Shown one piece after another: positions 23,840 through 27,871 of a stretch of DNA of 40,863 nt; the stretch's first letter is position 1; each line of letters opens with the position of its first letter. This DNA comes from an uncultured Verrucomicrobiales bacterium. Lineage in GTDB: Bacteria; Verrucomicrobiota; Verrucomicrobiia; Verrucomicrobiales; Akkermansiaceae. The stretch lies in contig CALBVY010000042.1 in assembly GCA_937969495.1 (NCBI GenBank), positions 1-40,863 of the forward strand. The letters are read 5' to 3'. Made by a program: the position numbers and the translations under genes. The notes under the pieces were generated by a model that saw only the letters and a program-made list of their open reading frames with translations, searched no databases and was not told where the DNA came from.

Positions 23840-26596
23840 TTACTTCAGGCTCATCAGATAGCCCATTAGGTCTGTAGCTTCCTGTTCATTAAGCCTGCTA
23901 ATCATCCCTGGAGGCATCGGTGAGACTGGTGATTCGGTGATTGACTCCACATCTGCCTCATCCACCTCGATGGTCTTTTCAAAATTAAAGGCATCATAAG
24001 CAACGACATAAAACCCATCATTTTCACCAAGAATCTTACCAACTACCGTACTACCATCTTTTTTCTTAATAACCTTAAAAGAATACTGGTTAGAAATCAC
24101 ATCACCAGGTTTGATGATGGCTTCGGCAAACTCCTTCGGCCCAAATCTCCCTCCAGAAAAGGTCATGTCAGGGCCTGAGCCACCACCCTTACCTTTAACT
24201 TCATGGCAAGCGGCACAGTAGCTGGCACGGAACATTTTTTCTCCATTGGCAAGATTTGCCTTTTTTAAATCGAGCGCTACCACTTCTTCTACTGTCCAGT
24301 TTTTCCCAGGGCCTTTGGGCATAGGGAGATTTTTAAACGGATCGCTAATGGTGACATCAAGCTCCCATGAAGAAATCATTTTTCTCTCTGCACGAGTTAC
24401 ATTTTTCAATGCCTCTTTATAAATATTTTTGATGAAATATTTATAACTCTTACCTCCATCTTTTTTAATCGCATCACTAAACCAGGTGAAATACTGTTTC
24501 CTCTGCTTCTCTGTCCATGGTGCTGTCACACCTTTCAGGCAGTAGACATAGTGAAGGCTCTGCGTGGAAGGCATGTTCTTCAGCATATTGATGATATCAC
24601 TTCCATAACGTTCATTTTTCCCAGCTAAAGCAATCCAATTTGGAGGAGTCACCTCCTTAGGCTCTGCGATAAGAGCAAGCGTTTTACCAATCACACTGGG
24701 CACTTGTAGGTAGCTAAGCATACGGCAGAGCTCACGATTTACATGTTCATTCTTACTTGGGAAATGTGGCTCCAGCTGAGTAGTTATCTGCGCTGTTAGC
24801 TGCGCTTCTGATTTCCCATGACGTGACATCAGAAGTGCTTGTGCACGGAGTAATTCCAGCTGTGCATCAGTATCTAGCTTCGCAAAATCAAGCTGAGCGA
24901 GCTGCTTGAGTGCTGCATGTGCCTGCTCCTTATCCCCTTGCCGGGCTACGGCCACAGCCATCTGGCATAGTGGGCGTTGATTTTTCTCAACACGCATTTT
25001 GCCAATCCATTGCTGCACAGGTAGATGCTCCAGTGCCACTCTGGCAGTAGAACGAATCACTCGATCCGAATGGCTGAGACTTGATAAAATCAAATCAAGG
25101 TCTCGATCTTCCCCCAAATGCATCGCTTCCAGCTTCCGGCGGAGCGCAAAGTCCTTAGGTAATGGTGAGGGTGAAATCGGCGCTGTGCTCTCTGCGCCTT
25201 CATAAGTGACGCGGTAGAGTCCAGAGCCGGCTCTACGCCCACCAATCATAAAATACATGGCTCCATCAGCACCTATTACAGCGTCTGTTAGCGGCAAACC
25301 GGTGCTTGATAAAAATGGCTCCCTTGTCCCTGTATAAGTAGCACCTGTGGGCTGAAGATGAACAGCATACATAGTGGCAAATGTCCAATCGAGAGCAAAC
25401 ACAGCACGCTGGTACTTCGCCGGGAATTTAGCACCAAGCCCTGCCACTACTCCTGTAGGAGAACCTGGTCCGATGTCCACAGCAGAGGGCATACTATCAA
25501 GATAATACTCAGGCCATTTCCCTGTACCATTCCGCCATCCAAACTCAGATCCACTAATTGCATGGCACATCCGTGTAGGGCGATACCATGGTGTGCCAAA
25601 GTCATATTCCATATCCGCATCATAGGCAATAAGCTCACCATGTTCATTAAATGCCATATCATAGACATTGCGGTAACCACTGCTAACAAGTTCCCACGTC
25701 TTAGCATCTGGGGAAAAACGGATAATCCACCCACCAGGAGCTTTCAGCCCACCAGCATGACCTTTACCATCAGCCATTCGTTTGAGTAAATGGTCTTCAC
25801 TCCAATTTTTAGTAGCAGAGAAACGGTCAACTTCCTTTGGTAAGTGTGTAAAATTCCCTGATACCATATAAATCCATTTCCCATCAGGAGAGGCTACTAA
25901 GGAGTGTGGACCATGTTCTCCACCCGTGTTAAGCTTTGCAAGCAGTTCAATTTTATCCAGCTCATCATCGCCGTTACTATCTGTTAGTCTGTAAATTCCA
26001 GGTGCTGTGATATGATTTGTTGCCACCGAAACATAAAGCGCACCTTGATGCCATAATAAGCCCTGAGCTCCTCCTATGGCTACTTTCGGGATTTTTTGTG
26101 TCTTTCTCTGAGCTTCTGTGATCTTTTTCTGAGCATCTTTAATTTCTCCATAAGCGTCTTCGATCTCTTTATTGGCCTCTTGAACATCTTTCTTCGCTGC
26201 TATTCTCTCTTGCTGAACTGCTATTCTCGCCTTCTGAGCTGCTATTCTCGCCTCCTGATTTTTTTTAATTTCTTTCTGAGCTGCTATTCTCGTTTCCTCA
26301 GCTGCTATTTTCGCTTTTTGAGCTGCTCCCAGTTTTACTTTAAGTGGCTCTACCTTGAATGGCTCAAGCGTCACACGGAAAAGCCCGCCATATTGATCAG
26401 AAGTAATCAGGCGCCCTTGATCGTCCCACGTCATCGCTACCCATGAACCCTGTCCTTGGGCAACTTGGTAGAGCTTCTCTACCTTAAACCCTTCTTGGAC
26501 AGTTATTTCAGATACTTTCTGGATTTTGTTTGCATGTAATGGAGAAGCAATCGTCAGTGATGCTGCAATAAAAGTAATGATTCGCGTGCTAGTCAT
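23840..26596 (-). CDS. PVC-type heme-binding protein: propeller with heptad-repeat insert, HEAT-like region, cytochrome c
   Basis: A 918-residue exported protein. The frame opens at 26680, but ATG 26596 gives a signal peptide ending at SPLHA. An N-terminal sorbosone-dehydrogenase-like propeller (VAMTWDDQGRLITSDQYGGLFRVT) comes first, then a helical HEAT-like middle. The C-terminal cytochrome c domain has C794-AAC-H798 and a likely Met ligand in VSPMPPGM. This architecture is typical of Planctomycetes and Verrucomicrobia; the substrate is unknown, with electron transfer from a periplasmic dehydrogenase reaction expected. Residues about 84-165 are an unusual Ala/Lys/Glu/Gln coiled coil that interrupts the propeller between LKVKLGAAQ and VAIGGAQGLLW. 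It is divergent from a double-thioredoxin gene. Confidence 0.9.
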   Translation of the reverse strand: MTSTRIITFIAASLTIASPLHANKIQKVSEITVQEGFKVEKLYQVAQGQGSWVAMTWDDQGRLITSDQYGGLFRVTLEPFKVEPLKVKLGAAQKAKIAAEETRIAAQKEIKKNQEARIAAQKARIAVQQERIAAKKDVQEANKEIEDAYGEIKDAQKKITEAQRKTQKIPKVAIGGAQGLLWHQGALYVSVATNHITAPGIYRLTDSNGDDELDKIELLAKLNTGGEHGPHSLVASPDGKWIYMVSGNFTHLPKEVDRFSATKNWSEDHLLKRMADGKGHAGGLKAPGGWIIRFSPDAKTWELVSSGYRNVYDMAFNEHGELIAYDADMEYDFGTPWYRPTRMCHAISGSEFGWRNGTGKWPEYYLDSMPSAVDIGPGSPTGVVAGLGAKFPAKYQRAVFALDWTFATMYAVHLQPTGATYTGTREPFLSSTGLPLTDAVIGADGAMYFMIGGRRAGSGLYRVTYEGAESTAPISPSPLPKDFALRRKLEAMHLGEDRDLDLILSSLSHSDRVIRSTARVALEHLPVQQWIGKMRVEKNQRPLCQMAVAVARQGDKEQAHAALKQLAQLDFAKLDTDAQLELLRAQALLMSRHGKSEAQLTAQITTQLEPHFPSKNEHVNRELCRMLSYLQVPSVIGKTLALIAEPKEVTPPNWIALAGKNERYGSDIINMLKNMPSTQSLHYVYCLKGVTAPWTEKQRKQYFTWFSDAIKKDGGKSYKYFIKNIYKEALKNVTRAERKMISSWELDVTISDPFKNLPMPKGPGKNWTVEEVVALDLKKANLANGEKMFRASYCAACHEVKGKGGGSGPDMTFSGGRFGPKEFAEAIIKPGDVISNQYSFKVIKKKDGSTVVGKILGENDGFYVVAYDAFNFEKTIEVDEADVESITESPVSPMPPGMISRLNEQEATDLMGYLMSLK
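26198..26323 (-). repeat. 21-bp tandem repeats encoding a 7-residue heptad
   Basis: Six consecutive 21-bp units at 26198, 26219, 26240, 26261, 26282 and 26303; five begin TGCTATT and one (26261) is diverged. Each encodes a seven-residue unit of RIAAQKA type on the minus strand. Units are whole multiples of three, so gain or loss keeps the frame. Confidence 0.9.
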
Positions 26597-26689
26597 GGTG
26601 GAAATTGATTGGAAATAGATAACATATATACGGAAAAATGATAATGATCTTTTCTTGAAAGGGCAAAAAAGCAGTGTCATATATCCATT

Positions 26690-27871
26690 ATGTCTAGATG
26701 GTTACCTTCTCTTACTTCTGCAATATTCATTTCACTTCCTTTTGCCGTGGCTCAAGCAAAGCCTGCGCCTATCAAGACGTTAGAGATTGGAGCCCAAGCT
26801 CCAGACTTTAATCTGCCTGGGGTGGATGGGGAAAATCATAGCCTCAAAGACTTTTCGGACTCTAAGGCCATGGTTTTCATTTTTACATGTAACCATTGCC
26901 CTGATGCCCGCGCAGCCCGTGGTAAGATGATCGCCCTCCACAAAGACTATAAGGACAAGGGGGTAAAAATCGTGGCGATTTCAGGAAATGACAATCAGGC
27001 TCTGCGGCTCGCTGAATTTAGCTTTTCCGTCTATGAGGATAGCTTTGATGATATGAAAATCGTTGCCAAAGAAGAGAATTACCAATTCCCCTACCTCTAC
27101 GATGGTGAGACTCAGGCCACAACCCTAGCCTACGGTGCCGTAGCCACTCCTCATGTCTTTATCTTTGATGAGCAGCAGAAGCTCCGCTATCACGGAAGAA
27201 TCGATGACGCTCGCCGTAGCCCTAAGGATATTGGGACTCCCTATGTGCGTCAGGCCTTGGACGCGCTTCTTACTGGAAAAGAAGTAGCCACTCCTATCAC
27301 GCGTGCTCACGGCTGCTCTACGAAGTGGACTTGGAAACGAGATGCCGTAGCTCAAGATGAAAAACGCTGGAAACAACTACCCATCACCTTAGCAGATCTG
27401 AATGAGGCCGAGGCAAAGGTTCTAGCTAAAAACAAATCCCAAAAACTACGTGTCATCAACTTCTGGTCCACCACCTGTGGCCCTTGTGTGGCTGAGTTCC
27501 CTGACCTCGTTAACATCGCTCGCCGCTATGACATGCGCCCCATGGAAGTTATCACCATCAGTACAGATCCTATCGCTGATCGAAGCAAGGTCCACAATTT
27601 CGTAAAAAATCAACATGCCGCCGCCTCACCCCGAGTAAGCCAGACACTGAAAGAGGAAGGCCGAAGCTCAAACAACTACATCTTTAGCGGAGAAAATATC
27701 GATCGACTCGCAGAAGCCATCGATCCCAAATGGAATGGCGCGCTACCACACACCGTGATCATCGCCCCCGGAGGCAAGGTAATCTGGAGACACAATGGTA
27801 AGTTTGACACCATTGAGCTACGCCGCCAAATCATCGGCTACTTCGACCATCAAGCCAAACACTCAAAATAA
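26690..27871 (+). CDS. Exported double-thioredoxin-fold protein (redoxin plus TlpA-like)
   Basis: A 393-residue protein with a signal peptide ending near VAQA. Domain 1 (about 30-190) is a redoxin/AhpC-TSA-like fold: GAQAPDFNLPGVDG, then FTCNHCPDARA with a CxxC (CNHC) and VATPHVFIFD carrying the cis-proline. It ends with the HGCSTKW motif seen in this group. Domain 2 (about 240-390) is TlpA/ResA-like: INFWSTTCGPCVAEFPDL, with CGPC and the cis-Pro in GALPHTVIIA. Both active sites look intact. It probably acts in periplasmic disulfide reduction or cytochrome c maturation, which fits its divergent neighbour, a CxxCH protein. That link is inference. Confidence 0.88.
   Translation: MSRWLPSLTSAIFISLPFAVAQAKPAPIKTLEIGAQAPDFNLPGVDGENHSLKDFSDSKAMVFIFTCNHCPDARAARGKMIALHKDYKDKGVKIVAISGNDNQALRLAEFSFSVYEDSFDDMKIVAKEENYQFPYLYDGETQATTLAYGAVATPHVFIFDEQQKLRYHGRIDDARRSPKDIGTPYVRQALDALLTGKEVATPITRAHGCSTKWTWKRDAVAQDEKRWKQLPITLADLNEAEAKVLAKNKSQKLRVINFWSTTCGPCVAEFPDLVNIARRYDMRPMEVITISTDPIADRSKVHNFVKNQHAAASPRVSQTLKEEGRSSNNYIFSGENIDRLAEAIDPKWNGALPHTVIIAPGGKVIWRHNGKFDTIELRRQIIGYFDHQAKHSK

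Follow-up and report, generated by a model that had tools for sequence, protein, structure and literature searches.

A predicted helical arm of 21-bp units in a propeller loop of a PVC-type cytochrome, possibly born in place from native strand codons

The window, that is the whole analysed stretch of 40,863 nucleotides from an uncultured Verrucomicrobiales bacterium of the family Akkermansiaceae, encodes a PVC-type cytochrome with an array of twelve heptads inserted in a loop of its propeller. We consider it probable that this is a lineage-specific loop insertion, in which codons of a native strand were duplicated and expanded into a helical arm. In brief, the codons at the end of strand 1D (about GGA-GCA-GCT-CAA) would have been duplicated on the branch leading to the species, slippage or unequal recombination would have expanded the copies in 21-bp steps, and the units would then have diverged into two types. 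The outcome would be a helical arm of twelve heptads, likely a two-helix hairpin, on a probably exported propeller-cytochrome protein. Seven residues make up approximately two helical turns, and each unit added in frame thus lengthens the helix without a break. The more specific picture of a helical hairpin, coiled coil in one half, that was born in place from native strand codons near the mouth of the active site, with sisters that retain the ancestral state, is put forward tentatively, as a conjecture rather than an expectation.

Gene and domain organization

The cytochrome gene is located at 23840-26596 on the minus strand, starts with an ATG at 26596 and encodes 918 amino acids. A second in-frame ATG is found at 26680. 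In order, the protein consists of a putative signal peptide, the propeller, a middle region and a C-terminal heme domain. The probable Sec signal peptide, MTSTRIITFIAASLTIASPLHA (26531-26596, minus strand), was read from the sequence, and given this putative signal the protein is probably exported. The C-terminal heme-binding domain, at residues about 780-918, scores above the cut-off of TIGR02603 (82.1 bits vs 68.15) and contains the heme c motif CAACH, a CxxCH motif at residues 794-798 (24203-24217, minus strand). The identification as a PVC cytochrome, made in the original prediction, is thereby supported.

The N-terminal part of the protein matches TIGR02604 below the cut-off (77.8 bits vs 122.2). 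It should be noted that relatives without the insert also score below this cut-off, at 64-84 bits, and the insert is thus not the cause of the low score. On these scores we regard the protein as a diverged subfamily and not as a full TIGR02604 member. The nearest publicly named orthologue is encoded on an Akkermansiaceae contig and is 74% identical. The divergent neighbour at 26690-27871 of the window encodes a product that, as read from its sequence, resembles a redoxin/TlpA-like protein.

Insertion point and distribution among relatives

Aligned relatives without the insert read PLKVK-[T/M/I]GGAQGLLW directly. This places the insertion between VKLGAAQ and VAIGGAQGLLW, where it had been predicted, and where the relatives pass straight through. 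All features given here are on the minus strand. The last strand before the insert is strand 1D of the propeller (FKVEP, 26345-26359), which corresponds to strand 57-61 of the AlphaFold2 model and to residues 80-84 of the protein. It is followed by the 5' edge, KVKLGAAQ (26318-26341), a near-copy of the native strand end that resembles KVK[T/M]GGAQ of the relatives. The 3' edge is KVAIGGAQ (26063-26086), the native segment entering strand 2A, and strand 2A itself (QGLLWHQ, 26048-26068; model strand 154-160, residues 177-183) is the first strand past the insert. Based on the alignment and on connector lengths, the net insertion is 255 bp or 85 amino acids, residues 89-173 (26078-26332). Its exact ends are ambiguous because both edges resemble each other.

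We measured the connector, defined as the stretch between the GLFRV strand and GGAQGLLW, in 73 distinct sequences. It spans 13-29 residues in 71 of these, including 26-29 residues in L021, L025 and L136, and 46 residues in L035, whereas it spans 99 residues here. The 72 other connectors contain no heptad repeats, and this excludes that all homologues share the coil. We did not find the coil in relatives from 14 genomes at the genus level, 289 at the order level and 286 at the class level (these samples overlap). A search with the insert and both flanks against the 289 order and 286 class genomes gave no foreign match spanning the insert.

In the phylogenetic tree the window sequence joins that of genome G011 and then that of G013, with support of 100/99 at both nodes, and neither of these has the insert. 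The simplest placement of the gain is thus on the terminal branch, later than the divergence from G011, and the insert appears to be lineage-specific and recent as judged from the sequences compared. We found no description of such a propeller-loop insertion in the literature.

Some observations were made on the other homologues. L035 (G007:C410), a more distant homologue from the same genus, has a Lys-rich connector of 46 residues following GIFRF, TYSADKTKARKDAPKPKKDKAKLLKLPN, which by its sequence we take to be an independent lengthening of the same loop. The orthologue of genome G009, L022 (G009:C179), is found in two ORF pieces of 593 and 236 amino acids, possibly due to a frameshift or an assembly error. 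At the cut-offs used, there is no propeller match in any listed genome of the sister genus g3 of the same family (e.g. G015 and G039-G041), and most other genera carry at least one match.

The repeat array

Read in frame on the minus strand, the array is made up of twelve heptads in a strict and unbroken 21-bp register at 26087-26338. Heptads 1-6 are, in order, VKLGAAQ, KAKIAAE, ETRIAAQ, KEIKKNQ, EARIAAQ and KARIAVQ, and heptads 7-12 are QERIAAK, KDVQEAN, KEIEDAY, GEIKDAQ, KKITEAQ and RKTQKIP. Six AARIAAQ-type units were originally predicted. The repeat is real, but the units number twelve, and KEIKKNQ (26255-26275) departs from the AARIAAQ type; its closest unit is GEIKDAQ of the second half, with 15/21 bases identical. 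Heptads 2-7 (26192-26317, minus strand) are mostly of type A and heptads 8-12 (26087-26191, minus strand) are of type B. Units of type A are identical at up to 19/21 bases and pairs of different type at 7-15/21.

TRF reports an array at 26187-26327 with a period of 21 and 6.7 copies. The lag-21 identity is 0.615, compared to a maximum of 0.459 among 5000 codon shuffles. Under a null model in which synonymous codons were drawn for the same peptide, the observed identity was reached in 0/5000 cases for the whole array, in 0/5000 for the first seven units and in 54/5000 for the last five. The units are thus alike at the codon level beyond what the peptide needs, and the array was built by in-frame tandem duplication, as growth by 21-bp units would have it. 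The unit pattern has six matches in the window, five of them inside the array, where 0.11 are expected.

Other arrays of period 21 exist in the 645 kbp of the organism's own genome that we covered (40 stretches and the window). A genome-wide habit of forming 21-bp arrays was considered and rejected, as the sole other array of at least 60 bases (L105) does not encode helical heptads. In-frame tandem repeats of 165 and 174 bp, with units of the FGxSVALSGDTALIGA type, are found in L095 (G000:C17, 1496-3218).

The two halves of the array differ in character. In heptads 8-12, position 3 is mostly Ile or Val and position 6 mostly Ala, an amphipathic I-x-x-A pattern with the classical 3-4 spacing, and the hydrophobic moment of this half is 0.463 compared to 0.135 in shuffles, none of which (0/5000) reach the observed value. 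In heptads 2-7 Ala is spread over three positions without a heptad hydrophobic stripe, and the moment of the first half is 0.075 compared to 0.126 in shuffles (p = 0.76). The predicted coiled coil thus fits the strongly amphipathic heptads 8-12, whereas heptads 2-7, going by their residue pattern, are better called an Ala-rich helix.

Predicted structure of the arm and the propeller

An AlphaFold2 model was made of residues 24-508 together with three relatives; adding 23 to the model numbering gives the protein numbering. The model has a pLDDT of 70 and a pTM of 0.72, with an arm confidence of about 50-77 in context. It places strand 57-61, helices 68-110 and 119-142 and strand 154-160 in this order, so the insertion lies in a propeller loop, flanked by strands. 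The first helix corresponds to heptads 2-7 and the second to heptads 8-12, and the break between them falls at AKKDVQEA, the junction of the type-A and type-B units. Modelled alone, the arm is one helix of 77 residues with a mean pLDDT of 89. A straight helix of approximately 115 Å cannot return to the adjacent strand, and a hairpin is therefore favoured for the monomer. By this geometric argument the arm most likely forms a hairpin of two helices, with its bend close to where the two unit types meet. A straight form of the rod in the original prediction is disfavoured, since it could not exit from one loop and re-enter it.

The modelled propeller matches PQQ sugar dehydrogenases, AA12 enzymes and aldose sugar dehydrogenases with Z about 28 over model residues 2-444, with 283-312 residues aligned, an rmsd of 2.6-3.3 and 12-21% identity. 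These matches are complete six-bladed structures, and on the model the propeller is of the six-bladed PQQ sugar dehydrogenase fold. With four strands per blade, the arm sits in the 1D-2A connection. The model does not show a propeller that continues uninterrupted through the coil, as it puts two helices between strands 1D and 2A. A sequence search of solved structures mainly returned cytochrome domains, in addition to a weak match to 2ISM.

In the sGDH fold, PQQ and the substrate are bound on the face of the D-A loops. We infer from the model that the arm projects from the 1D-2A loop on what is the active-site face in PQQ sugar dehydrogenases. The next D-A connection contains EHGPH (25904-25915, minus strand) with His228 and His231, which are invariant in 33/33 homologues and are a candidate equivalent of the catalytic His144 of sGDH. 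Arg309-Asn310 is likewise invariant in 33 homologues and aligns with GHRN of 2ISM in the weak sequence match. No PQQ synthesis genes scored over the cut-off in the genome; it should be noted that the search for PqqC was silent in the controls too.

Possible role of the arm

The arm is most likely tolerated, and its amphipathic second half may pack against the first half or serve as a contact, for which the protein itself, the cytochrome domain and an envelope partner are candidates. We consider a neutral, tolerated extension almost as likely as a surface for contacts. Such a neutral expansion would have been made by slippage, in frame, and would be harmless in a loop that tolerates differences in length, giving a helix that has neither partner nor role; we give it somewhat less than an even chance. 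It has the same origin as our preferred explanation and differs from it in function alone, so that our confidence in one overlaps with that in the other. It agrees with an insert that is missing from all relatives examined and hence young, in a loop that has been lengthened elsewhere (independently in L035, and in L021, L025 and L136). Differences between units 2-11 are spread evenly over the codon positions (116/133/127), so that no constraint on the peptide is apparent, and the first half without its hydrophobic stripe fits a neutral origin as well. However, the twelve heptads are in register with no stop, and the second half is more strongly amphipathic than expected from random drift.

Origin of the array

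That the array is flanked by KVKLGAAQ and KVAIGGAQ suggests seeding from the codons of the strand. The cores of the two edges are identical at 14/21 bases (p = 3.4e-4, i.e. 0.034% of random in-frame pairs within the same gene). When the residues or codons of the insert were shuffled, the match to the native edges gave p = 0.00135 at the protein level and p = 0.0047 at the DNA level; this match stems mainly from the 5' side, the 3' side alone giving p = 0.08 and p = 0.28, respectively. When the native segment was compared with the unit consensus, 20/798 other segments of the gene scored equally high, which places it in the top 2.5%, and the synonymous test gave p = 0.007. Based on these related signals of moderate strength, the codons of the native strand likely seeded the array.

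Alternatively, a foreign coiled-coil fragment could have been captured from another gene and homogenised afterwards. The genome does encode generic coiled coils, and these were the only matches in a search of it for a protein donor (E 0.05 and 0.2), while a search for a DNA donor in the same genome and in 57 relatives gave only matches of chance quality, 16-46 bases long. With no donor found in these searches, the native strand mirrored at both edges and the units matching each other at the codon level, we regard capture as unlikely.

According to the original prediction, the length may differ between strains, and a rod could present the domain or bind a partner. Read as a length-variable, Periscope-like spacer or rod, the array would vary in copy number from strain to strain and so adjust the presentation of the propeller or what it binds. 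Exact 21-bp units, the most similar of them identical at 19/21 bases, could in principle recombine, and probable export of the protein is in line with this. However, most units have diverged (7-17 of 21 bases identical), which lowers slippage, and an insertion in a loop cannot extend a stalk as a terminal repeat tract does; we hold this proposal to be quite improbable. An assembly artefact, conceivable in a draft genome of 98 contigs, is highly improbable since the array is in frame on both sides within an otherwise intact ORF, its units are imperfect and distinguishable and its edges are related to the host gene, but the exact copy number could be wrong in the assembly.

The preferred explanation, a loop insertion expanded from strand codons, gives a before-and-after case, with a plain loop in the nearest orthologues and a helical arm gained via 21-bp duplication in one gene. 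If the array was seeded from the strand, it would show how beta-strand sequence can give rise to a helical hairpin with no domain imported. Otherwise, we are dealing with a tolerated loop insertion of the ordinary sort, in the large and poorly characterised PVC cytochrome family.

Comparison with known systems

The PVC-type heme-binding CxxCH proteins (TIGR02604/TIGR02603, with a DUF7133/GSDH-like propeller) have the same propeller, middle region and C-terminal heme domain, but their connector is at most 46 residues long and has no heptad repeats (72 sequences), compared to 99 residues here. The PQQ-dependent sugar dehydrogenases, i.e. sGDH, Asd and the AA12 pyranose dehydrogenase, have the six-bladed fold in common with the cytochrome. 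The identity is low (12-21%), and PQQ use by the cytochrome is putative. We know of no helical arm in PQQ-dependent sugar dehydrogenases. In AA12 enzymes, too, the propeller is joined to a cytochrome domain, and among AA12 enzymes and sGDH the active-site loops vary in length between members (PMC6881789).

Periscope proteins are exported bacterial proteins with tandem repeats that could form a rod (PMC9704523), and the same can be said of the cytochrome, for which export is putative. They are surface-attached stalks with high identity between repeats and demonstrated variation in repeat number (PMC9704523), whereas the array described here is in a short internal loop, has diverged units and is represented by one genome per species. 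With regard to the mode of growth, the arm can be compared with repeats of seven codons in two unrelated proteins.

The C-terminal domain of RNA polymerase II is not helical, and the coil of LINE-1 is a trimerisation domain. Seven-codon units are reported to be gained or lost in frame in the RNA polymerase II CTD (PMC4882425) and in the coiled coil of L1ORF1p (PMC5940361), as we suggest for the propeller loop of this cytochrome.
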